Below are positions 1 to 29,109 of a DNA stretch of 29,109 nucleotides, one piece after another (positions within the stretch are counted from its first letter, which is position 1; each line of letters starts with the position of its first letter). Source of the stretch: a virus. The position numbers were made by a program, and so were the translations under genes. The stretch lies in the IMG/VR virus record IMGVR_UViG_3300015366_000308, positions 1 through 29,109 of that record; one strand, given 5' to 3'. The notes under the pieces were generated by a model. It did no database searches, had not been told where the DNA came from, and saw nothing but the letters and a program-made list of their open reading frames with translations.

Positions 1-533
1 GGCAACCGGTATTCAATTTTGTAGTAGATATCCAGCGCATCTTCGTCTTCCGGAACAAACCCTGTAGCAATCTTGATACCGCCTGCTTGTTCCAGTGCTC
101 TGATCTTCTCTTGCTCCTCCATGTACATCTGGGAGATGGCTTTCTCTCTTTTCTTTGTTTTTTGGGCTAGGGCATCGGTAGCTTTTACTGAAGGTATTTC
201 ATCGCGGGAAAGAAAGCTTCCTAATATATTTTGAACATATCTTGGTATTACTTTGATCAACTGCCAATCGATATTAATTAACGATTGGTTACCTTCTACA
301 CCCATCAGCGGCTTAAATTCCTTGTTACTGGTGGTACCCTTGGCGTATTGTTCATTTAAGTTCCACTGCTCGTATCGTTGTTGATAATACCCATTGTTGC
401 CAAAAGAAACAAAATTCCACATCTGTTCTGACACCCTCAACCCGTATTCGGGTTTTCTTTTTTCGCTAGGAACATCAAACTGCATGCTCAGTAAAGCGTC
501 AAAATCCGGTGTGGTAAATGGTCTGTTGCTCAC
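1..533 (-). CDS. Portal protein, N-terminal part (runs off left edge)
   Basis: An open frame on the minus strand starts at GTG 533-531 and continues to base 1 without a stop, giving 177 residues (MSNRPFTTPDFDALL...). An in-frame TAA at 569-567 bounds it upstream; TTG 554-552 is an alternative start, and the nearby ATG at 550 is out of frame and stops after six codons. The segment around QSLINIDWQLIKVIPRYVQN, followed by a charged helix, matches my memory of the N-terminal region of portal proteins in crAss-like and related Bacteroidota phages, where a 'fixed position, ring clamp' helix pair follows. A portal would form the dodecameric DNA gate at the capsid vertex. It lies just downstream of the lysis genes and is separated from them by a strong terminator, so it probably starts a new transcript. 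Assignment is by pattern only; the diagnostic wing and stem regions are outside the window. Confidence 0.6.
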   Translation of the reverse strand, partial: MSNRPFTTPDFDALLSMQFDVPSEKRKPEYGLRVSEQMWNFVSFGNNGYYQQRYEQWNLNEQYAKGTTSNKEFKPLMGVEGNQSLINIDWQLIKVIPRYVQNILGSFLSRDEIPSVKATDALAQKTKKREKAISQMYMEEQEKIRALEQAGGIKIATGFVPEDEDALDIYYKIEYRL

Positions 534-587
534 TTTGATATTATTTTCATACAAAATAACGAAACTTTACGGATTAGGACTTTAATA

Positions 588-623
588 AAAGAAGACCCCT
601 TAACCAACAAAGGGGTCTTCTTT
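588..623. terminator. Strong bidirectional hairpin terminator
   Basis: A perfect 14-bp stem, AAAGAAGACCCCTT (588-601) with AAGGGGTCTTCTTT (610-623), closes an 8-base loop. Read on the minus strand, the stem runs into TTCTTTTATT, so it can end the late/lysis transcript just after the endolysin gene. On the plus strand it is followed only by the T's of the stem itself. It separates the endolysin (stop at 677) from the portal start at 533. Confidence 0.85.
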
Positions 624-676
624 AAAACCATAGCTGTATAACTGCTGGATAAAAGTATACTTTTCATTTGTAACAA

Positions 677-1123
677 TCATCTTGGGTAACGTATATACTT
701 AACAGACTTTGGGTTTGTGGATATTGAATGCTCAAATGTGCCGGTCCCGTTCGAACTATTCCCGTCCTCGCTTGTGTTACCGGCTATACCAATTTTACCG
801 CCATCTTCTGTCACTATCCCTATGTGGTGAGCATGGTCATTAGCATCCACATAAACGAACAGGTCATTTTTAACTGGCTTGGCGGTGATCCAGTTATTTT
901 TCTTTGCCAAATCATATACATCCTGACATGCGCCAAGTCTTGGTATTATAGACTTCCCTTCAAAGCATATATCAAGTACCATTGTAACAAAATAGCAGCA
1001 CCATGACTCTCCTTTCAACCCGCCACACCACTTTTGGATAGCCTCTACCCTGTTTCCAGAATTCGGGCTAGCTTCCCTAACGAATAAATATTGCCTTGCT
1101 ATATCAACTGGAGAGTATTTCAT
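677..1123 (-). CDS. CHAP-domain endolysin
   Basis: This 148-residue protein is a cysteine-histidine amidohydrolase/peptidase that should cut host peptidoglycan. The active site is visible: Cys42 in GESWCCYFV, His100 in HHIGIV, and Asn116 in AGNTSEDG, followed by the NGTGTF segment typical of the CHAP amidases that end phage lysis cassettes. There is no signal peptide, so release needs a holin. I chose ATG 1123-1121 because it follows the upstream stop with one base between (TAA-T-ATG). A longer frame to 1165 would add 14 residues and overlap the spanin-like gene. The protein is a bare catalytic domain without an obvious cell-wall binding module. It is the last gene before the terminator. Confidence 0.85.
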   Translation of the reverse strand: MKYSPVDIARQYLFVREASPNSGNRVEAIQKWCGGLKGESWCCYFVTMVLDICFEGKSIIPRLGACQDVYDLAKKNNWITAKPVKNDLFVYVDANDHAHHIGIVTEDGGKIGIAGNTSEDGNSSNGTGTFEHSISTNPKSVKYIRYPR

Positions 1124-1124
1124 A

Positions 1125-1811
1125 TTAAGCCTTTTTAAATAAATTTTTAACTGATAAGATTGCACTCCACATATAACTTCTAGCTACGTGGGACAAAATA
1201 AGAATAGCGACACTTGCGATAAGAAACCACATCAGCCGGTTTATCTCTTTCTTACCGTCTGCTACGTTTGTATGTAATGTTTGGATAACGCCATCCTTTG
1301 TTGCACCTTCTTTATCTTTTAAATGAAAGCTATCCTGCCATCGCCTTGTCTCACTGGTCATGAATGACAACTTAGTGGTATCCGGAGGGCACTTAGCTTT
1401 TATTTTATTAGCCAGGTATTGTTTCTCGCATTCGTCCCAACCTAGGTCGTACGCATCTGCAGCGGCCTGCCCACAGTTTAACTCGTTCTCGTGTGCTTTC
1501 TTTACAGAATCGATCAGTTGTTGCCGTCCAGATGTATCCTTAACAATCTTGGTCTGGTGGACTATAATTTCCTTTCCAGGGGACAGTATGATCTTGGTAG
1601 CGGTATCTATAGGATGACCTTGCAGATAAGCATTAACAACTGGTATTTGAAGGGGGGCTTTTGCATTTACCCTATCCACAGATTTCTGGTCATCCCTGGC
1701 TATTTTCTTTTCCGTATTGCATGCACAAAGTAATGCGATTACTAACGCTGATAGCAATGTAAAAAGTATGATCTTTTGCCATGGTGGAGACACGTCCTTC
1801 CATGTTTTCAT
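1125..1811 (-). CDS. Candidate unimolecular spanin (lipoprotein plus C-terminal TM)
   Basis: This 228-residue protein has a hydrophobic N-terminus (residues 14-30) ending in LLCAC, which can be read as a lipobox with Cys31 as the lipidated residue (Leu at -3, Ala at -1; Cys at -2 is unusual). A long hydrophilic, Cys-containing middle follows, then a second membrane segment at about 194-210 (MWFLIASVAILILSHVA) and a basic tail. A lipidated N-terminus plus an inner-membrane C-terminus is the topology of unimolecular spanins such as T1 gp11, which bridge the two membranes and fuse them in the last step of lysis. It sits between holin-like genes and the endolysin, as expected. It is longer than T1 gp11 (about 130 residues, from memory). 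An alternative reading is a two-TM holin accessory protein. Confidence 0.6.
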   Translation of the reverse strand: MKTWKDVSPPWQKIILFTLLSALVIALLCACNTEKKIARDDQKSVDRVNAKAPLQIPVVNAYLQGHPIDTATKIILSPGKEIIVHQTKIVKDTSGRQQLIDSVKKAHENELNCGQAAADAYDLGWDECEKQYLANKIKAKCPPDTTKLSFMTSETRRWQDSFHLKDKEGATKDGVIQTLHTNVADGKKEINRLMWFLIASVAILILSHVARSYMWSAILSVKNLFKKA

Positions 1812-1816
1812 AGGTA

Positions 1817-2050
1817 TTATTTTGTGTTACCGTCAGCAGCCTGGGAATCTGTTTTTTTAGTAGCGTTAGGTGCCTTCCCAGTAAGGTACCCAATCACTCC
1901 AACAGATACAGCGGCCAATACACCGCAGATGGCTTGCACCGATGCTGGTATATGTAAACCGCTAGATGCCGCTGTTAAAATGCTGCCTGATACCGCTGCC
2001 GCCACACCAAATATGGTCGTGAGCGTGTCTTTAATGTTTGAAGTATCCAT
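1817..2050 (-). CDS. Two-TM holin candidate
   Basis: This 77-residue protein has two hydrophobic helices, about residues 12-32 (TIFGVAAAVSGSILTAASSG) and 38-58 (VQAICGVLAAVSVGVIGYL). They are separated by a short turn containing HIPAS and followed by a polar, basic C-terminal tail (about 60-77). Small size, two TM segments, a charged tail and a place just before the spanin-like and endolysin genes fit a class II holin, which forms lesions in the inner membrane and sets lysis timing. ATG 2050 follows an A-rich leader (AAATAAAACACATATAA) with no Shine-Dalgarno. Holins are too diverse for a firmer family call. Confidence 0.65.
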   Translation of the reverse strand: MDTSNIKDTLTTIFGVAAAVSGSILTAASSGLHIPASVQAICGVLAAVSVGVIGYLTGKAPNATKKTDSQAADGNTK

Positions 2051-2061
2051 TTATATGTGTT

Positions 2062-2361
2062 TTATTTGTGTGAATTATATGACCAAACAATTGAAATTAC
2101 TGTGTTCAAAAAGCCTACCATCCCGGCATATAGTGCCCATCTTTTTTCACGCTGGTCTCTGGCAATAAGGCGGTCTTTTTCGCTTCTGATATATTTATCA
2201 GTTTCTTCTGCTTTCCCCTCTAGCTTCTTAACCCTATGAACAAATCCATCTTCGTTATACTCCGTTCCTATCAATGCATCTTTTATCATAGTTAAGTCCT
2301 GCCTCATCTGAGAGAAATCATCTTGAAGATTTTTAACCACCTGTTCCATGTTGAATTCCAT
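2062..2361 (-). CDS. Coiled-coil, single-TM lysis-region protein (XhlA-like layout)
   Basis: This 99-residue protein has a long charged, heptad-rich N-terminal part (about residues 1-70, e.g. MRQDLTMIKDALIGTEYN and VKKLEGKAEETDKYIR). It ends with one membrane helix near the C-terminus (about 76-95, WALYAGMVGFLNTVISIVW). That layout is like the XhlA/hemolysin-type membrane proteins that accompany holins in some phages, but I see no sequence signature that proves homology. Its position immediately upstream of the two-TM protein suggests a holin partner or antiholin. ATG 2361 is the first start; Met5 is an alternative. Confidence 0.5.
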   Translation of the reverse strand: MEFNMEQVVKNLQDDFSQMRQDLTMIKDALIGTEYNEDGFVHRVKKLEGKAEETDKYIRSEKDRLIARDQREKRWALYAGMVGFLNTVISIVWSYNSHK

Positions 2362-7675: not shown

Positions 7676-10600
7676 TTATTTCTCCTTAGGAAGGTCATGA
7701 TGAGTGATTTCCTTATAAGCATCCTTGAGTTCTGGGGTATCAAAGAACTCCGGCTTTGTCCTAGCCAGGTTTATGAACGATGATACCCTGTTGATGTATT
7801 GTTTATATTCTTTTTTATCCTCAGGCTTCATCTCTGTCCACACCTTCAGCTGTTGCTCGGAAGGAAGATCGCGGAAGATTCTATGGTAAGGGTTCAGCTT
7901 GGCATCCCTGATGTATGCCTGCTGCCCATTGCTCGTAAGCCTGGCTTTATCTCTAACCTCCTTAGGTATGTCATTCCACTTTGTTCCGGCAAATAAGTCA
8001 TTCCTGAGTTCTCTACGAGCAGATATACGTTCGGCATCAGCTTTTGTTTTAACCTCATCCTTAAATGATTTCTGTGCCGCCACGGATATTTTATTTTGTA
8101 TTGGGGTTTGTTGGAATTCCTTTTTAGCCGGCATAATACCGAACTTCTGTTCAACCTTCTGTCTGAGTGATGGCTCCTTTTCGGAAGAACTCTGTGGTTT
8201 GAAGGAGAATGGAATAAATGATTCCCCCTCGTATTTTAAAATATCAACTCCTTTTTCAATCAAATTCCCAGAGTATATCTCAGTGCCATAAAAATCTTTA
8301 TTCTCAAACAGGCTGATCACTTCGTTGATAATTGGTGATGTTTTATCAGCCAATGTCTTACCAGGATCTTTGGCATATGAGAATGCATCTTTCATGTAGG
8401 AGGGAAGAGAAACCCTGTGATCAGTTCCGTCAGCATTCTTTGTACCGTCCTTAGGAAAGAAGTAATCACGCCATTCTTCTGGCTTCTTCCCAGTCATTAT
8501 GTATTGGTACATTGCCCCGTAAGTTCCTACCATGGCAGGTAGGGTAAGTAACCAGGCTGTGTTTGAAGTAAGTCCTTGCCCTTTCAGTAATCGTTTAGCT
8601 GACTCAGGGGCTTCTAGTGTTCCTTTACCGAAGGCCCGGATAGTACCGCCTGTCCAACCGAACGAACGGATGGTAAGAAATGCCATGTCCTTCATAGTTT
8701 TATCCCAGAACAGGTTATCATAAACCATCTGTCCTAAACGATCGTCCATGGAATCACCGGCTTTCTGGTATATTCTGGCAATCTCTTTTGGAGAAAGTTC
8801 ACCGCGACCACCTTTCATGATAATTTCGTTCTCTGCGGTACGGATCATACCTCCCACTTTAAGACGGGGAACATACCATTCCATCAATGGTTTGGCGGCA
8901 ATCTCAGGGATGGTGAGCACAAGGTTCTTAACGACTCCCGGCAGTTGTGAAAAATCTTTATCTGCTCTGAGTTTACCAATCCCTTTCTTCAGGTTGTAAT
9001 ATGAATCAAGAGTGTATATTTTGCTTAAACCGGTTCTTGCGTTCGCATCGATCATCCCACGCACAGATTCATCCATTATCCCCTTTTGCCTGTACGATTT
9101 GATGCCTTTATCGCCAACATACAGAGTTTTGCCTATGTTAGGAAGAACAGCCAACGAACTCAGTAACTGTCCAAATCCGCTTGGCTTGCCTGCAGTAAGT
9201 AACCTAACCCCCTCAGCGGCACCGGTTACGGTAGCATCCATGGTTGTGGTAGTTAAGTGGAACATCCCAAACCCTAACTGGAACAAGTTCTTAACGTTGT
9301 TGTATGCTCTTGCTGATTGGAAGGCATTCTTCATGATCACGCCTTTACCTGCGAATCCACGACTCAGGTAGTTATTAACCACATAAGCTACAGGCTCTGG
9401 CATATAGTACCCACCAGAACTTGATTTAGCGGTGCCTTCTTCCGTAACAAAGCTGCTCATACGTTTAAACAAAGGATCTTCCACCAACTGCCATCCTTCC
9501 GGCTGACCACCGGTCTTGAAAAATTTCAACAGGCCGTCCCTCTTCATTTCCTTAAACACCTTATGAGCAGCCTCGAACTTCCAGGCGTTGGTCTCAGCCA
9601 AACGTACCATTTCTTCTGGGTTGTCAGTTGCCAACTTATAACCAGCTTCTAATCCGGAAAGGATATCAGCAAAGAACCTCTGCTTCAAGAATGATTTATT
9701 ACCCTCTAATGGTGCTTTCGCATGCACTGCTGCAAAGTGAGCACCTGCTTTATCTGGTTTCTCCCAGAAGTGAGGGAAGTAATCTTCGGTGTATGGAACA
9801 TCCTTGATCTTGCTTAAAATATCGAATACATCATCCATACGCTGGCGGTACATATCAGCCATGGCTTTATATTCAGGAGTAGCATCTCCATACATCTTCG
9901 GGTTCTCAATGCTAAGGATGAAGTTTACTTTATCTTGATGAGGGATGCTATTCCAATCATTCATTAATTTATGGTGCTCTGCATCTGCCTGCTCATTCTT
10001 TCTGTTCTCTTCTCCTTTAATACCCCTGATAGCAGCCATGGTATCTCTAGCCATTTCTCTTCCTTCAAACGATGCCGCATGGAACATTTTAACACCGGCT
10101 TTGATCATATCTTTCGGCTTGGATACGAAATCTTTTATTTTCTGCCATACAGATTTGCCCTTGTCTAGGTTACCGATAGCAGTTGCAACTCTGTACTGGG
10201 TAAGTTCTTTTTTCTGCTGATCATCAAGATGACCAGAATCAACCAACTCTTTATGCAGAGCAGCAACGATATCTTTATCTGTTACCGGGTCACCAGTATG
10301 ATTATCCTTAATATGCTGCACTCCTTGTTTAACGGCATCTACGATCGATTCTCCGAGTTCAATAGCTGTGGCGATAGTTTCTATTGCACCATCCCAGATA
10401 GCGACAGGAACACCTAAGCCTGCGTCATACAGCTTACCTTTCTTGGATTTAAGTTCACGAACCTGGTCTGCTAATTTTTTGGCAGCTGGTCGAACCACTT
10501 CGGCTTTACCGAGTTTATCATTTCCTCGTCCGGTTCCTCGGTCGCTCCCCACAGAGCCTGGTTCAGATACGTCTCCTGATTTATTGGAGTCTTTTCCCTC

Positions 10601-12853
10601 AACAGCATTTTTATTACTTGATCTTGACCAGCTTGGGGTCTCAATTCCTCCGGCAGCATCATTAACCCGTTGTCTTGCTTCATGGATATTTATTTTATGG
10701 TTAGCGTAATCTTTCCATATTTGAGATACAGCTTCTTTGTTTTTTGCATCACTTTTAAACGTGTCTTTAAATAACCCCCTTACAGCTTCCCAGGTTATCG
10801 ACTGCATCTGGCGAGCAAGTATTCCTCTTTCTTTTGCAGCCATATCGTAAGCCTCAGATAATGCAGCATACGTACCGGATATACCCGTTTCAGCAGATCC
10901 TTTGCCGGATAAGTTATCCTTCACTTTTTGATCACTGCCTGCCAATGGCTCCAGAAATGCAGCAGCTACTGCATGTGTGTCAATAGTAACATGCGGTGTT
11001 TTTGAATTAGGATCAGAGATGTTGTTATTAAAGCTTCGAACCTTATGTTCTTCTCCCAACTGTTTTGATATATTTTCAGGGGAGCCGTCCTGTGCTAACG
11101 ATATTGCTTTATCAATAGTACTATACCCTTGCCACCCCACCTTTGAATAGGCAGCAACTCCTTTTTTATCTGGTTTGTTTTTTGCAACGCCTATAATGTC
11201 ACCATTTGGAGAGTATACGTTGTATGATTTTGAATTGTATGCCTCATCATAAGATCGTAACATTTGAGGGAAATAGTCGCGGTCTTCGGATAGTTTTTTG
11301 CCAAGTAACCCGGCTGCACTCTTCTTTGCATCTTCTGTTTGTTTCTGCATCCTGGCATCGAATGCTTCTTTTGATTCACCTTTCATTACCTGACCTCTGC
11401 CAGAAAGTTCTACGTATTTATCAATGATCTTTTGATCAATAATGAAATCTGATTTTGTTTTAACAATATCAATAACACGTTCAGCTAGACTGATATTTTT
11501 ATACCAATCCATCTGTGGGCTTAAAGATGCTAGTACTGCTGATGCCTGTTCATTTGACATCTTATATTTTTTGGCAAGATTCTGAGCCAATACATTAGCC
11601 CCGTCATACCACCTCTCGGAAACCTTGCGAACATCATCCGGAACGCTATCGTGCAGCCACAATAGGTTATCTGCTACTTTACGCACAAAATCCTTATACA
11701 CACGATCGGCAGCTTCCATTCCTTTTGCCTGCAGTTCTGGGCTACCACCTTTTGATTTTGGAAGGAGACCCTTCTCTATCGCTTTTACATCTTTAGGATC
11801 AGTAAATCTTCTCATAAGGTCGTAGCTGGCAATCGTCTGGGCGATGGTCATGTAATTACTAGGAGATTTACGTGCTTCTTTCAGATTAGCTACGTTGTCA
11901 CCTGTTTTATGTACCGCAGACTGATCAGTGCCGGCAGATGTTGGGACTCTGGTGGAAACTGTTTTACCAGAGATGACTTTATTTTCTACATCGTCCTTTT
12001 TTAACTCAGCAACGTGTTTCGCATCTTCTTTGGCTATATCAAATTTTGCAGGCTTGGATAATGATTGATCCTGATCTTCCATATGCTTTCTAAACATCGC
12101 TTCGCCCCACTTCTTTCCGGACATATTTTCATTTACCCAGTTAACGGTAGCTTCAATAGCTTTACCGAATTCTGTATTTTTTTCTACCTGGCTAGCTAAG
12201 AATTCAAGTGCTCCATCATAAATAGCTTTGGTAAGACCTAGGTCTGGTAATACGTTCAATGTTCCTTTATCGCTTTTTAGGCTGCGGATACGATCGGCTA
12301 ATTGCTTTGGTGATTGTTTTACTTCTGTTGGGGTTGTTTCATTTTTAATTGGTTCTCGGTACATTGTTTCTTTGGTAGTAAAGTCTTTATTACTTCCCTT
12401 ATTTTCAACGAACCCGAATTGTTTATAAAAGTCTTTAAGTCTATTAACGGAGGTTGCACCAAAATCGGTTGATGGTGTTAATACAATACGCTTACCATTT
12501 TCGTCTGCATACTTTACAATATCTTCCATTGCTTTACTACCGATACCACTTCCTTGTTTATCTTTTGGCACTTCTATTCTCGATAGCGTTAAATCACCTA
12601 ATGCACCTTTTTTATTCAAATCACCCATTAAGTCCAAAGTAATACCATGCTTTTCTTCCATTTGTTTTGAAAAATCAGATGGGGTTACTCCTTTTGCATC
12701 CCCTACACTACCACTACCTTCTTCTATTGGTTTAGGGGGTTTTAAATCATTCTCAGCCAAATGCTGCTTAAACGCTTCTTCCCCTTTGAATTCTTTTTTT
12801 GATCCATCCGGTAGCGTAAGAGTGAATATGCAGTCTGGAGAGTATGATGGCAT
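7676..12853 (-). CDS. Giant polyvalent-type virion protein with GNAT-like and HhH-GPD-like regions
   Basis: This 1725-residue protein is probably carried in the virion and ejected with the DNA. From the N-terminus: a short 'LTLPDGSKKEF' strand motif (11-21); a GNAT-like acetyltransferase segment (about 70-165) with QGSGIG at 100-105 as the acetyl-CoA loop and DFYKQFGFVE near its end; a 60-residue helical repeat (183-244); a region at about 410-670 with SPQMDWYKN (445-453) and HVTIDTHAVAAA (621-632); a second copy of the helical repeat (792-852); then a long helical part with DYFPHFWEKP (1024-1033) of the kind seen in phage large polyvalent proteins. The TIDTHA segment resembles the VDTHVxR catalytic loop of HhH-GPD DNA glycosylases. 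Sampled G+C is about 39% across 10741-11520 but about 50% in sampled lines of the C-terminal half. The start follows the ATP-grasp stop after three bases. Confidence 0.6.
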   Translation of the reverse strand: MPSYSPDCIFTLTLPDGSKKEFKGEEAFKQHLAENDLKPPKPIEEGSGSVGDAKGVTPSDFSKQMEEKHGITLDLMGDLNKKGALGDLTLSRIEVPKDKQGSGIGSKAMEDIVKYADENGKRIVLTPSTDFGATSVNRLKDFYKQFGFVENKGSNKDFTTKETMYREPIKNETTPTEVKQSPKQLADRIRSLKSDKGTLNVLPDLGLTKAIYDGALEFLASQVEKNTEFGKAIEATVNWVNENMSGKKWGEAMFRKHMEDQDQSLSKPAKFDIAKEDAKHVAELKKDDVENKVISGKTVSTRVPTSAGTDQSAVHKTGDNVANLKEARKSPSNYMTIAQTIASYDLMRRFTDPKDVKAIEKGLLPKSKGGSPELQAKGMEAADRVYKDFVRKVADNLLWLHDSVPDDVRKVSERWYDGANVLAQNLAKKYKMSNEQASAVLASLSPQMDWYKNISLAERVIDIVKTKSDFIIDQKIIDKYVELSGRGQVMKGESKEAFDARMQKQTEDAKKSAAGLLGKKLSEDRDYFPQMLRSYDEAYNSKSYNVYSPNGDIIGVAKNKPDKKGVAAYSKVGWQGYSTIDKAISLAQDGSPENISKQLGEEHKVRSFNNNISDPNSKTPHVTIDTHAVAAAFLEPLAGSDQKVKDNLSGKGSAETGISGTYAALSEAYDMAAKERGILARQMQSITWEAVRGLFKDTFKSDAKNKEAVSQIWKDYANHKINIHEARQRVNDAAGGIETPSWSRSSNKNAVEGKDSNKSGDVSEPGSVGSDRGTGRGNDKLGKAEVVRPAAKKLADQVRELKSKKGKLYDAGLGVPVAIWDGAIETIATAIELGESIVDAVKQGVQHIKDNHTGDPVTDKDIVAALHKELVDSGHLDDQQKKELTQYRVATAIGNLDKGKSVWQKIKDFVSKPKDMIKAGVKMFHAASFEGREMARDTMAAIRGIKGEENRKNEQADAEHHKLMNDWNSIPHQDKVNFILSIENPKMYGDATPEYKAMADMYRQRMDDVFDILSKIKDVPYTEDYFPHFWEKPDKAGAHFAAVHAKAPLEGNKSFLKQRFFADILSGLEAGYKLATDNPEEMVRLAETNAWKFEAAHKVFKEMKRDGLLKFFKTGGQPEGWQLVEDPLFKRMSSFVTEEGTAKSSSGGYYMPEPVAYVVNNYLSRGFAGKGVIMKNAFQSARAYNNVKNLFQLGFGMFHLTTTTMDATVTGAAEGVRLLTAGKPSGFGQLLSSLAVLPNIGKTLYVGDKGIKSYRQKGIMDESVRGMIDANARTGLSKIYTLDSYYNLKKGIGKLRADKDFSQLPGVVKNLVLTIPEIAAKPLMEWYVPRLKVGGMIRTAENEIIMKGGRGELSPKEIARIYQKAGDSMDDRLGQMVYDNLFWDKTMKDMAFLTIRSFGWTGGTIRAFGKGTLEAPESAKRLLKGQGLTSNTAWLLTLPAMVGTYGAMYQYIMTGKKPEEWRDYFFPKDGTKNADGTDHRVSLPSYMKDAFSYAKDPGKTLADKTSPIINEVISLFENKDFYGTEIYSGNLIEKGVDILKYEGESFIPFSFKPQSSSEKEPSLRQKVEQKFGIMPAKKEFQQTPIQNKISVAAQKSFKDEVKTKADAERISARRELRNDLFAGTKWNDIPKEVRDKARLTSNGQQAYIRDAKLNPYHRIFRDLPSEQQLKVWTEMKPEDKKEYKQYINRVSSFINLARTKPEFFDTPELKDAYKEITHHDLPKEK
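10298..10480 (-). repeat. Helical repeat copy 2 in the 1725-residue protein
   Basis: Encodes residues 792-852, starting KKLADQVRELKSKKGKLYDA and including VAIWDGAIETIATAIE. It is a diverged copy of residues 183-244 (KQLADRIRSLKSDKGTLN, KAIYDGALEFLASQVE). The two copies flank the HhH-GPD-like region. Confidence 0.7.
12122..12307 (-). repeat. Helical repeat copy 1 in the 1725-residue protein
   Basis: Encodes residues 183-244, sharing the pattern K-x-LAD-x-(V/I)R-x-LKS-x-KG ... A-I-(Y/W)-DGA-(L/I)-E with the second copy at residues 792-852. From memory, the same helical element recurs in many phage polyvalent proteins, often between domains. Confidence 0.7.
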
Positions 12854-26520: not shown

Positions 26521-27192
26521 TTATTCTCCTTTGTTTATAACCTCCATACCAAACTGTACGAGATTTTCTGATTGGAAAGAGAGGCCAAGTATCTTACACG
26601 CCCTTCCGAGCACTTCTGTCATAGCTGAATCATTGAACTGCGGGTTTACACTTTTCGCCTGATTGTAAACAGGTCTGCCGCCTACAATATCGTAACCCCA
26701 AACAACATCATCAGGCTTTACATAATAGTTAACAATAACTGAACTTATTTGACCATTTGGGTACACATGCCAACCGGTTGCCGCTTCGTTGTACCAGCAC
26801 TTGCCGGTATCAGTAGGAGGATCGATCACTGAATTCATCCTTCCAGGAAGCTTGTTATCACTTATCCAGTCCACTTTTTTTCCTGACGGGTCAGTCATAA
26901 GGGCTAAATACCTGAATTTATCTGGGTATGGGGCAATGTTTGATGCTATATTTATCGTCTTCTCCTCTACTTTAAATGGGGACAAATCGGTAGATATTTT
27001 GTTGTTCATACCTAAACCAACTACCGGCACAGGTCTACCTGGTTGGAACTGCTGAACAAATCCTAGTAAATATTCTTGATACCCTTTCTGTCCAGCGGTC
27101 ATGGCGTATCCAAATTCATCAGGAGTGATCTGAGCGATTTGGTTCTTACGGGCCATAAAGTTTATGAATTGATATGCGTAATTGGCTGTCAT
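26521..27192 (-). CDS. Ring/adaptor-type structural protein, 223 residues
   Basis: The start, YQFINFMARKNQIAQITPDEF, resembles the first helices of a structural protein found after the capsid gene in many Bacteroidota phages ('FIN...K..G.I..DEF'). The middle is beta-rich with a Pro-Asp pattern (IAPYPDKFRYLALMTDPSGK, GWHVYPNGQISSVIVNYYV), and the end is a helix (EVLGRACKILGLSFQSENLV). It is likely a head-completion or neck ring protein. It is the first minus-strand gene after the HNH cassette, so the terminator at 27805-27828 implies it needs its own promoter or read-through. Confidence 0.5.
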   Translation of the reverse strand: MTANYAYQFINFMARKNQIAQITPDEFGYAMTAGQKGYQEYLLGFVQQFQPGRPVPVVGLGMNNKISTDLSPFKVEEKTINIASNIAPYPDKFRYLALMTDPSGKKVDWISDNKLPGRMNSVIDPPTDTGKCWYNEAATGWHVYPNGQISSVIVNYYVKPDDVVWGYDIVGGRPVYNQAKSVNPQFNDSAMTEVLGRACKILGLSFQSENLVQFGMEVINKGE

Positions 27193-27208
27193 GATGGTAG
27201 TGTCTTCC

Positions 27209-27216
27209 CAAAATTA
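27209..27216 (-). promoter_or_regulatory. Possible -7 element for the adaptor operon
   Basis: On the minus strand 27216-27209 reads TAATTTTG, an exact match to the Bacteroidota -7 consensus TAnnTTTG, about 17 bases before the ATG at 27192. No good -33 TTTG lies at the usual distance, so this is weak. It is proposed because the upstream terminator would otherwise leave the tail genes unexpressed. Confidence 0.25.
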
Positions 27217-27225
27217 ATGAATTGG

Positions 27226-27258
27226 TTGGGTTGATTTGAGAAAAAGTTTTTAGATTTG
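27226..27258 (+). promoter_or_regulatory. Putative Bacteroidota-type promoter of the HNH cassette
   Basis: TAGATTTG at 27251-27258 matches TAnnTTTG exactly. TTG at 27226-27228 lies 22 bases upstream, near the usual 19-21 spacing for the -33 element. The expected transcript start, about 27263, falls after the ATG at 27261 and about 115 bases before the ATG at 27381. This favours the latter as the real start and leaves a structured leader. Confidence 0.4.
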
Positions 27259-27300
27259 TGATGTCTGAAGTAGAACCCAGATTAATTATCACAGAAACTG

Positions 27301-27368
27301 CCCCAGAGGGCGGTTGGGCGAAGAGAGAGAAAGTCTCAATTCGGTTCTACCCCAATCATCCTCTGGGG
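27301..27368 (+). promoter_or_regulatory. Structured RNA element in the HNH gene leader
   Basis: The 68 bases fold into one long interrupted hairpin: CCCCAGAGG (27301-27309) with CCTCTGGGG (27360-27368), 9 bp; GGTTGGG (27312-27318) with CCCAATC (27351-27357), 7 bp including one G-U; CGAA (27319-27322) with TTCG (27340-27343); GAGA (27327-27330) with TCTC (27334-27337). It is followed by TATTTTTATTTT and then the ATG at 27381. It can therefore act as an intrinsic terminator/attenuator on the plus strand or as a regulatory leader. It does not fit a tRNA cloverleaf. Confidence 0.5.
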
Positions 27369-27380
27369 TATTTTTATTTT

Positions 27381-27818
27381 ATGAAAGAACGTAAAAAACA
27401 GCACAAACTAAGAAGCCATAAACTATACGGAATTTGGTCTGACATGAAAGATCGGTGCTACAATACTACCAGAGTCAGGTACCATAGATATGGTGGTCGC
27501 GGAATAACCGTTTGCCAAAGATGGTTGGACGATTTCAAAAATTTCTATGATGATGTTATAGAAGGATACAAGGAAGGATTAGAACTAGATCGGGTAGATA
27601 ATGACGGCAACTACGGCCCAGATAATTTTAGATGGGCCACCCATTTACAGAATACAAGAAATAGCACTGTTGCAAAGCTAACGGAAGAGTCTGCTGAATA
27701 CATACGGACTTGCGGTAAGTCAACAAAAGAACTGATGGTTCAGTTCGGCATGTGCAAGTCTGCAATCAATAGAGTAAAAAACGGGAAGACATGGAAGAAA
27801 ACAGATACGCCCCAATAA
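27381..27818 (+). CDS. HNH homing-type endonuclease with C-terminal HTH
   Basis: This 145-residue protein is the only plus-strand gene. Residues 13-50 (HKLYGIWSDMKDRCYN, YGGRGITVCQRW) are typical of free-standing phage HNH nucleases. The catalytic core is ELDRVDNDGNYGP (68-80), with Asp70 and Asn74 and then RWAT and QNTRN. A helix-turn-helix-like tail (about 99-140, TEESAEYIRTCGKSTKELMV) should add DNA recognition. ATG 27381 follows TTTTATTTT. The frame stays open to ATG 27261, but those 40 extra residues span the hairpin and lack family features. Such genes spread by cutting cognate alleles. The stop codon lies in the loop of the shared terminator. It sits between the capsid gene and the ring-protein genes. 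Confidence 0.85.
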   Translation: MKERKKQHKLRSHKLYGIWSDMKDRCYNTTRVRYHRYGGRGITVCQRWLDDFKNFYDDVIEGYKEGLELDRVDNDGNYGPDNFRWATHLQNTRNSTVAKLTEESAEYIRTCGKSTKELMVQFGMCKSAINRVKNGKTWKKTDTPQ

Positions 27819-27836
27819 AGGGGCGTATTGTTTAAA
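27805..27836. terminator. Bidirectional terminator between HNH and capsid genes
   Basis: ATACGCCCC (27805-27813) and GGGGCGTAT (27820-27828) form a perfect 9-bp G/C-rich stem with a 6-base loop that contains the HNH stop codon. On the plus strand it is followed by TGTTTAAATT, and on the minus strand by CTGTTTTCTT. It can end both the HNH transcript and the capsid transcript coming from the right. Confidence 0.8.
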
Positions 27837-27853
27837 TTAATATTCCTAACTCA

Positions 27854-29061
27854 CTAAGAACCAAGGAATAACGCATACTGCACAGGGGCAATAGTACGCA
27901 CCCCGAAATAACTCATCATAGAGATATTACGCTCCATAACGGTTGTTTTGTTCGCAGGGGCGGCACCGCCAGTTTCCCATGTTTGGATACGTGTTCCGTC
28001 GGGGCTTTTCTGCCAAACGATCTGGAAAGATGGGTAAGACATCGCGTTACCGCTTCCGTCTCTCATCTTAGGATCTTGGTTGATACGCTGAGGAATACAG
28101 ATCGCATACCCACGGTAGATAGAACCGGTAGAGGCCTGAGGCACTCTCTTGTACACCATCTCCGTGTTATACATTGCATTGCAATACATATGGAAGGTGA
28201 TGTTGTCCATCTTGAAGGTATCGAAACCGTAAGCTGCAGCGCTTTCTTTGCTACCACCCACTGATTCGTAGGTGCATGCATTGAAAGTTCCTTTGAACAG
28301 ATCAAACAACATGTTGTCGATGGCCTGTTTTGCGTAGAACTCATTCAGCATATGGTATTCACCAGGCGCACCGAAGAAGTTCAAGGCTCTTGTCAGAGTC
28401 TGGAAATCGTAGCGCATTGGGTTACCGGCAGTATACTGAACCTGAGAACCGTTGGCAGCAACCCTTTGCTGAACACCGATAGTACCATAGGTACCGTTGT
28501 TCAGGTTGTTTACGGTATTACCTTCCATTACTTTGAAGAACATGTTGTTCATGTACCTCTTATTCATATCATCCTGAGCCAGGTTGTAGTAGTACTGCTG
28601 GCCATCAGCGAGGATAACCTCCTGCTTCTCAATCAAGGCGAAGTCAGAGATATCAAAATCATCACGATGTTCTGTGGTGTAGTTGAATATCTTGTCATAC
28701 ACCGGAGCGAGACCAGCGGTTTTGTTTGATCCCTCACCTGCGTCCATGTTACCACGGAAAAGGAAGGCATCACCTGCAAGAATGGATGAAGAATTTGCGG
28801 AAGCGATATTATCTGTGGTCAGGTTTGGAACAACGGTCACAGTCCACGCATTAGTAGCCGTAGAAGGGATGGCTGTTACCTTCACCTGAATACCTGATGA
28901 ATCCAGGATCATGGTCTCACCTACACGAACAGGACACAGGGTTCCGTTCTGGTAGTAAGAATCCGTTCCTACCTGGAAGGTCACGGCATTACCGGCACCG
29001 GTAGATGCTACTGTTGTCTGTACGGATACAGAAGGGTGCAGCTGACGCTTCTCATAATGGT
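27854..29061 (-). CDS. Major capsid protein, 5' truncated
   Basis: A 401-residue C-terminal portion is visible; the frame is still open where it meets adapter sequence at 29062, so the true start is missing. GTG 28984 is an internal codon, not the start. Features consistent with an HK97-fold capsid protein of Bacteroidota podoviruses: a KRQLHPSVSVQT stretch, a beta-rich first third (PVRVGETMILDSSGIQVKV), a spine-helix-like region (AKQAIDNMLFDLFKGTFNA), and a final domain ending with ISMMSYFGVRTIAPVQYALF, a C-terminal strand style common in major capsid proteins. It is immediately upstream of the neck genes, as expected. No scaffold or protease gene is visible because the contig ends here. Family assignment is by pattern only. 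Confidence 0.65.
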
Positions 29062-29109
29062 CTGTCTCTTATACACATCTCCGAGCCCACGAGACGCTAC
29101 GCTATCTCG
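29062..29109. other. Nextera adapter, index and P7 start (non-biological)
   Basis: The 19-base transposon mosaic end CTGTCTCTTATACACATCT (29062-29080) is followed by the read-2 adapter piece CCGAGCCCACGAGAC (29081-29095). Then come an 8-base index GCTACGCT (29096-29103), which I recall as i7 index N709, and ATCTCG, the start of the P7 sequence. This is read-through library adapter left on the contig end, not phage DNA. Confidence 0.97.

Follow-up and report, generated by a model that had tools for sequence, protein, structure and literature searches.

An untrimmed Nextera adapter at the end of a virus contig interrupts a virion structural protein gene

In Nextera chemistry, there is a standard route by which library adapters reach the ends of assembled sequences, consisting of tagmentation, a short insert, read-through into the i7 adapter, absence of trimming, and a dead-end branch in the assembly. 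Passages of Moeller et al. (2024; PMC11536531) describe adapters that are concentrated at contig extremities in MGnify microbial genomes, with forward adapters at contig ends and their reverse complement at starts, and propose that adapters break contigs. A 34-base adapter string is used as a trimming target in a passage of PMC6460022. Here, we compare with these cases the right end of the window, which is the whole stretch of DNA that was analyzed and the full 29,109-base virus record.

The last 48 bases of the window are, with near certainty, an untrimmed man-made Illumina Nextera adapter. Both strands of the window were searched with a pattern in which the mosaic end and read-2 adapter were followed by 8 free bases and then ATCTCG. 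The pattern was found on the plus strand at 29062-29109 with 0 mismatches, and no second match was found on either strand with up to 3 mismatches. The pattern had 0 matches in 100 dinucleotide-preserving shuffles of the window, and the 19-base mosaic end alone occurs a single time in the window. The mosaic end and read-2 adapter make up 34 fixed bases with 0 mismatches, and over its entire length the stretch is identical to the Nextera i7 read-through construct (48/48). The match reaches the final base of the record, which places the adapter at the contig end in the outward orientation. The components are listed in Table 1. We take the 8-base index, GCTACGCT, to be N709. A primer named Ad2.9_GCTACGCT is tabulated in the primer listing of PMC7814285, and its reverse complement has the same order as the window, with the tail of the mosaic end followed by the read-2 adapter, GCTACGCT, and P7. 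Primer2.9_GCTACGCT, which has the same index, appears in the primer listing of PMC7156688. A sequence-only reading of the window had named a mosaic end, a read-2 adapter, an 8-base index, and the first bases of P7 at this location, and all of these were identified correctly.

Table 1. Features at the right end of the window
Feature	Position	Strand	Details
5'-truncated virion structural protein gene (capsid-like)	27854..29061	-	residues 69-469 and two bases of codon 68
Synthetic Tn5 mosaic end of 19 bases, pointing outward	29062..29080	+	CTGTCTCTTATACACATCT; exact match
Nextera read-2 (i7 side) adapter, 15 bases	29081..29095	+	CCGAGCCCACGAGAC; exact match
8-base i7 library index GCTACGCT (Ad2.9)	29096..29103	+	primer listings in PMC7814285 and PMC7156688
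P7 flow-cell adapter, first 6 bases ATCTCG, rest lost at contig end	29104..29109	+	

The true continuation of the phage sequence was observed in an independent record of the same phage, IMGVR_UViG_3300014933_000403 (G001), which is linear, has 63,981 bases, and was found by using what remains of the interrupted protein as a query. This remnant is 100% identical in G001. Window 1-2000 corresponds to G001 58161-56162 and window 27000-29061 to G001 31162-29101, giving a total span of exactly 29,061 bases. When window 1-29061 was compared with G001 base by base, 29,050 of the 29,061 bases agreed, with 11 mismatches and no indels, and the final 9,205 phage bases were identical. Divergence starts exactly at 29062, from where 13 of 48 bases in G001 agree with the adapter. 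Across the junction, coding sequence in G001 continues normally for 202 bases until an ATG is reached. No mosaic end was found in G001 or in a 72-kb relative (G002) with up to 2 mismatches. Since G001 crosses the junction without an adapter, the right boundary of the window is artificial, as the sequence-only reading had claimed, the N-terminus of the interrupted protein is missing, and the GTG at 28984 is internal. G001 extends 29,100 bases past the right end of the window and 5,820 bases past the left end; therefore, both ends are contig breaks. The adapter is at the right end only, and the left end, where an ORF (3-554, minus strand) is open, has no adapter. GenBank phage records gave no DNA match to window 4500-29061.

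Nine of the 11 differences from G001 cluster in 51 bases of the window (2088-2138), within a 99-aa ORF (2361-2062, minus strand). Four of them, at 2105, 2112, 2119, and 2126, are spaced exactly 7 bases apart, and in G001 the ORF acquires an in-frame TGA. Inversion of the segment was considered and rejected. Either G001 has a sequence error at this site or the two records truly diverge here.

The intact gene in G001 encodes 469 aa (positions 7797-9206 of L120, a part of G001). The window begins at L120 position 7999, and comparison with G001 thus gives a loss of 202 bases, equal to the first 67 codons plus the initial base of codon 68, in agreement with the claim that the N-terminus of a capsid gene was missing. 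The frame in the window reads '...CV*ETDHYEKRQLHP...', where the TAA is supplied by the mosaic end and stands in frame ahead of the surviving part, and the D is an artifact of the join that replaces Y68. Because this adapter-borne stop is in frame before the remaining gene, gene callers must use an internal start. The first remaining start, GTG 28984, is residue 94 and leaves 376 of 469 aa; the warning that an automatic call at this internal codon would be wrong was therefore justified. The N-terminal part is present in all five relatives, G001 among them, that were recovered by using peptides of the remaining protein. Residues 5-67 are covered by 13 of 13 relatives in an alignment that includes these five, although the 13 were found by peptide patterns located within the missing N-terminus or adjoining it and the presence of the N-terminus is thus partly selected.

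The truncated gene product is likely a capsid protein, as judged from a PHROG match. Residues 34-466 of the full-length form matched phrog_13704 (virion structural protein, head and packaging) with an E value of 3.4e-16, and the truncated form matched the same family with an E value of 1.1e-14. A Pfam search with the truncated form gave no match, and neither did a sequence search of solved structures or a protein search of GenBank phage records with the full-length form. AlphaFold2 models had a mean pLDDT of 33.8 with 5 sequences and 42.6 with 13 sequences, which was too low for a fold search directed at the HK97-type fold. The term capsid in the sequence-only reading is supported as far as a virion structural protein of head and packaging (PHROG 13704); a putative role as the major capsid protein would go beyond this match.

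An ORF on the opposite strand (27258-27818, plus strand) separates the capsid-like gene of the window from its neighboring virion gene and resembles an HNH endonuclease (phrog_374, E 1.1e-38). This ORF is also present in G001 and was not found in the stretches fetched from four other loci (L121, L133, L134, and L137). In L121, a gap of about 65 bases lies between these two virion genes. From these sequences, the ORF looks like an insertion of a mobile homing-type endonuclease. Elsewhere in the window, a 1725-aa protein (7676-12853, minus strand) matched DUF7178 (PF23802, E 4.8e-27) and had weak acetyltransferase matches under the curated cut-off.

The tail would have arisen during library preparation, when Tn5 transposase cleaved the phage DNA at the site corresponding to window base 29061 and joined the mosaic end to it, with the index and P7 being added by PCR. 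We infer that the read length exceeded that of the insert, in which case read 1 would have continued beyond the phage DNA and into the i7 adapter. If the reads were then left without adapter trimming, the assembler may have taken the branch from phage to adapter, and the contig would have stopped where no more adapter sequence was available. The join interrupts the virion protein gene after codon 67.

Two other explanations were weighed against this one. The 19-base mosaic end was derived from the ends of Tn5, and a match to it alone could mean that a transposon is present, in which case the junction would be a natural or experimental Tn5 insertion with a real transposon end in the phage genome. 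We regard this as vanishingly unlikely. A real insertion is ruled out by the read-2 adapter, the listed index, and P7, which come after the mosaic end and which no transposon carries, and G001 represents the same phage without the mosaic end. It could also be argued that the adapter was joined to a real end of phage DNA near 29061, either a natural terminus or that of a deletion variant, since an adapter would mark a true DNA cut in at least one molecule. However, tagmentation makes internal cuts by design, and the cut lies within coding sequence, after codon 67. A natural phage terminus is ruled out because the gene is not interrupted after codon 67 in G001, which runs unbroken for 29,100 bases farther, and we consider a real end of either kind highly improbable. 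The adapter tail is an ordinary artifact and not a real feature of the phage.

IMG/VR was then scanned for the exact construct, and at least 119 other stretches were found to carry it, with 124 copies in the matches listed. Among these, 122 of 124 copies are within 60 bases of a stretch end and point outward. Of the two that are farther from an end, one is at 72 bases and the other is internal, at L076:6346-6393 (IMGVR_UViG_3300028837_000933, 121,820 bases). In this contig, a complete Nextera adapter with index TAGGCATG is followed by P7, a poly-A run, and then other sequence, and it probably represents a chimeric join made via the adapter. The 20 bases that precede the adapter are distinct in 124 of 124 copies among the matches listed, and the bases after the index agree with P7 in all 124 over the length available, for up to 24 bases, with P7 complete in the longer copies.

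The distribution of the indices was also examined. Among the matches listed, there are 12 different indices, including GCTACGCT in 14 of the 124 copies and GCTCATGA, which we take to be N714. The copies come from 32 assemblies in these matches, 17 of which have at least two copies, and a single index was seen in 14 of these 17. When the labels were shuffled in 2000 control trials, the number of single-index multi-copy assemblies averaged 0.89 and never exceeded 5. Two indices each were found in the other three multi-copy assemblies among the listed matches (3300008516, 3300008517, and 3300028837), which would fit pooled libraries. This pattern of index by assembly is the behavior of a library tag and is unlike that of phage sequence. 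The GCTACGCT copies from 3300015366, 3300015367, and 3300015368 among the matches listed all end 0-2 bases past ATCTCG (7/7), and this common stop point, which is also seen in the window, hints at a shared library or pipeline. Eleven of the 12 indices are present in the primer table of PMC7814285, and GCTCATGA is absent from that passage.

These data suggest that Nextera read-through probably often underlies contig breaks in IMG/VR without being noticed, with tails that cut viral genes, add adapter-coded peptides and stops, and carry an index that reveals the library. No account of adapter tails specific to IMG/VR was found among the titles in a literature search. Searches of the literature for the adapter-frame peptides LSLIHISEPTR, CLLYTSPSPRD, and VSYTHLRAHET as contaminants also found none, and the adapter-frame peptide VYKRQ does occur in literature search matches. 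The relevance of the finding is limited to curation. The 48 bases should be trimmed off the right end of the window, the gene at its junction (Table 1) should be marked as 5'-incomplete, and no inference should rest on the 376-aa form of its protein. The same tail is at the ends of many viral records and can bring false peptides and stops into predicted proteins.

This kind of artifact has already been published for microbial genome databases (PMC11536531, in the passages cited above), whereas the present case concerns a different adapter and a virus database. The text of PMC11536531 contains neither 'Nextera' nor 'viral' (0 occurrences of each). As in the cases described there, the adapter in the window is at a contig extremity; the counts there were made in microbial assemblies of MGnify and concern the 12-base TruSeq universal adapter, while the window has a Nextera adapter in an IMG/VR record of an uncultivated virus. 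Compared with Nextera/Tn5 i7 adapter read-through itself (trimming target CTGTCTCTTATACACATCTCCGAGCCCACGAGAC), the tail of the window has in common all 34 fixed bases, the listed index Ad2.9, and the start of P7. Their order and orientation agree as well, and only the P7 side is shorter, where the contig ends.
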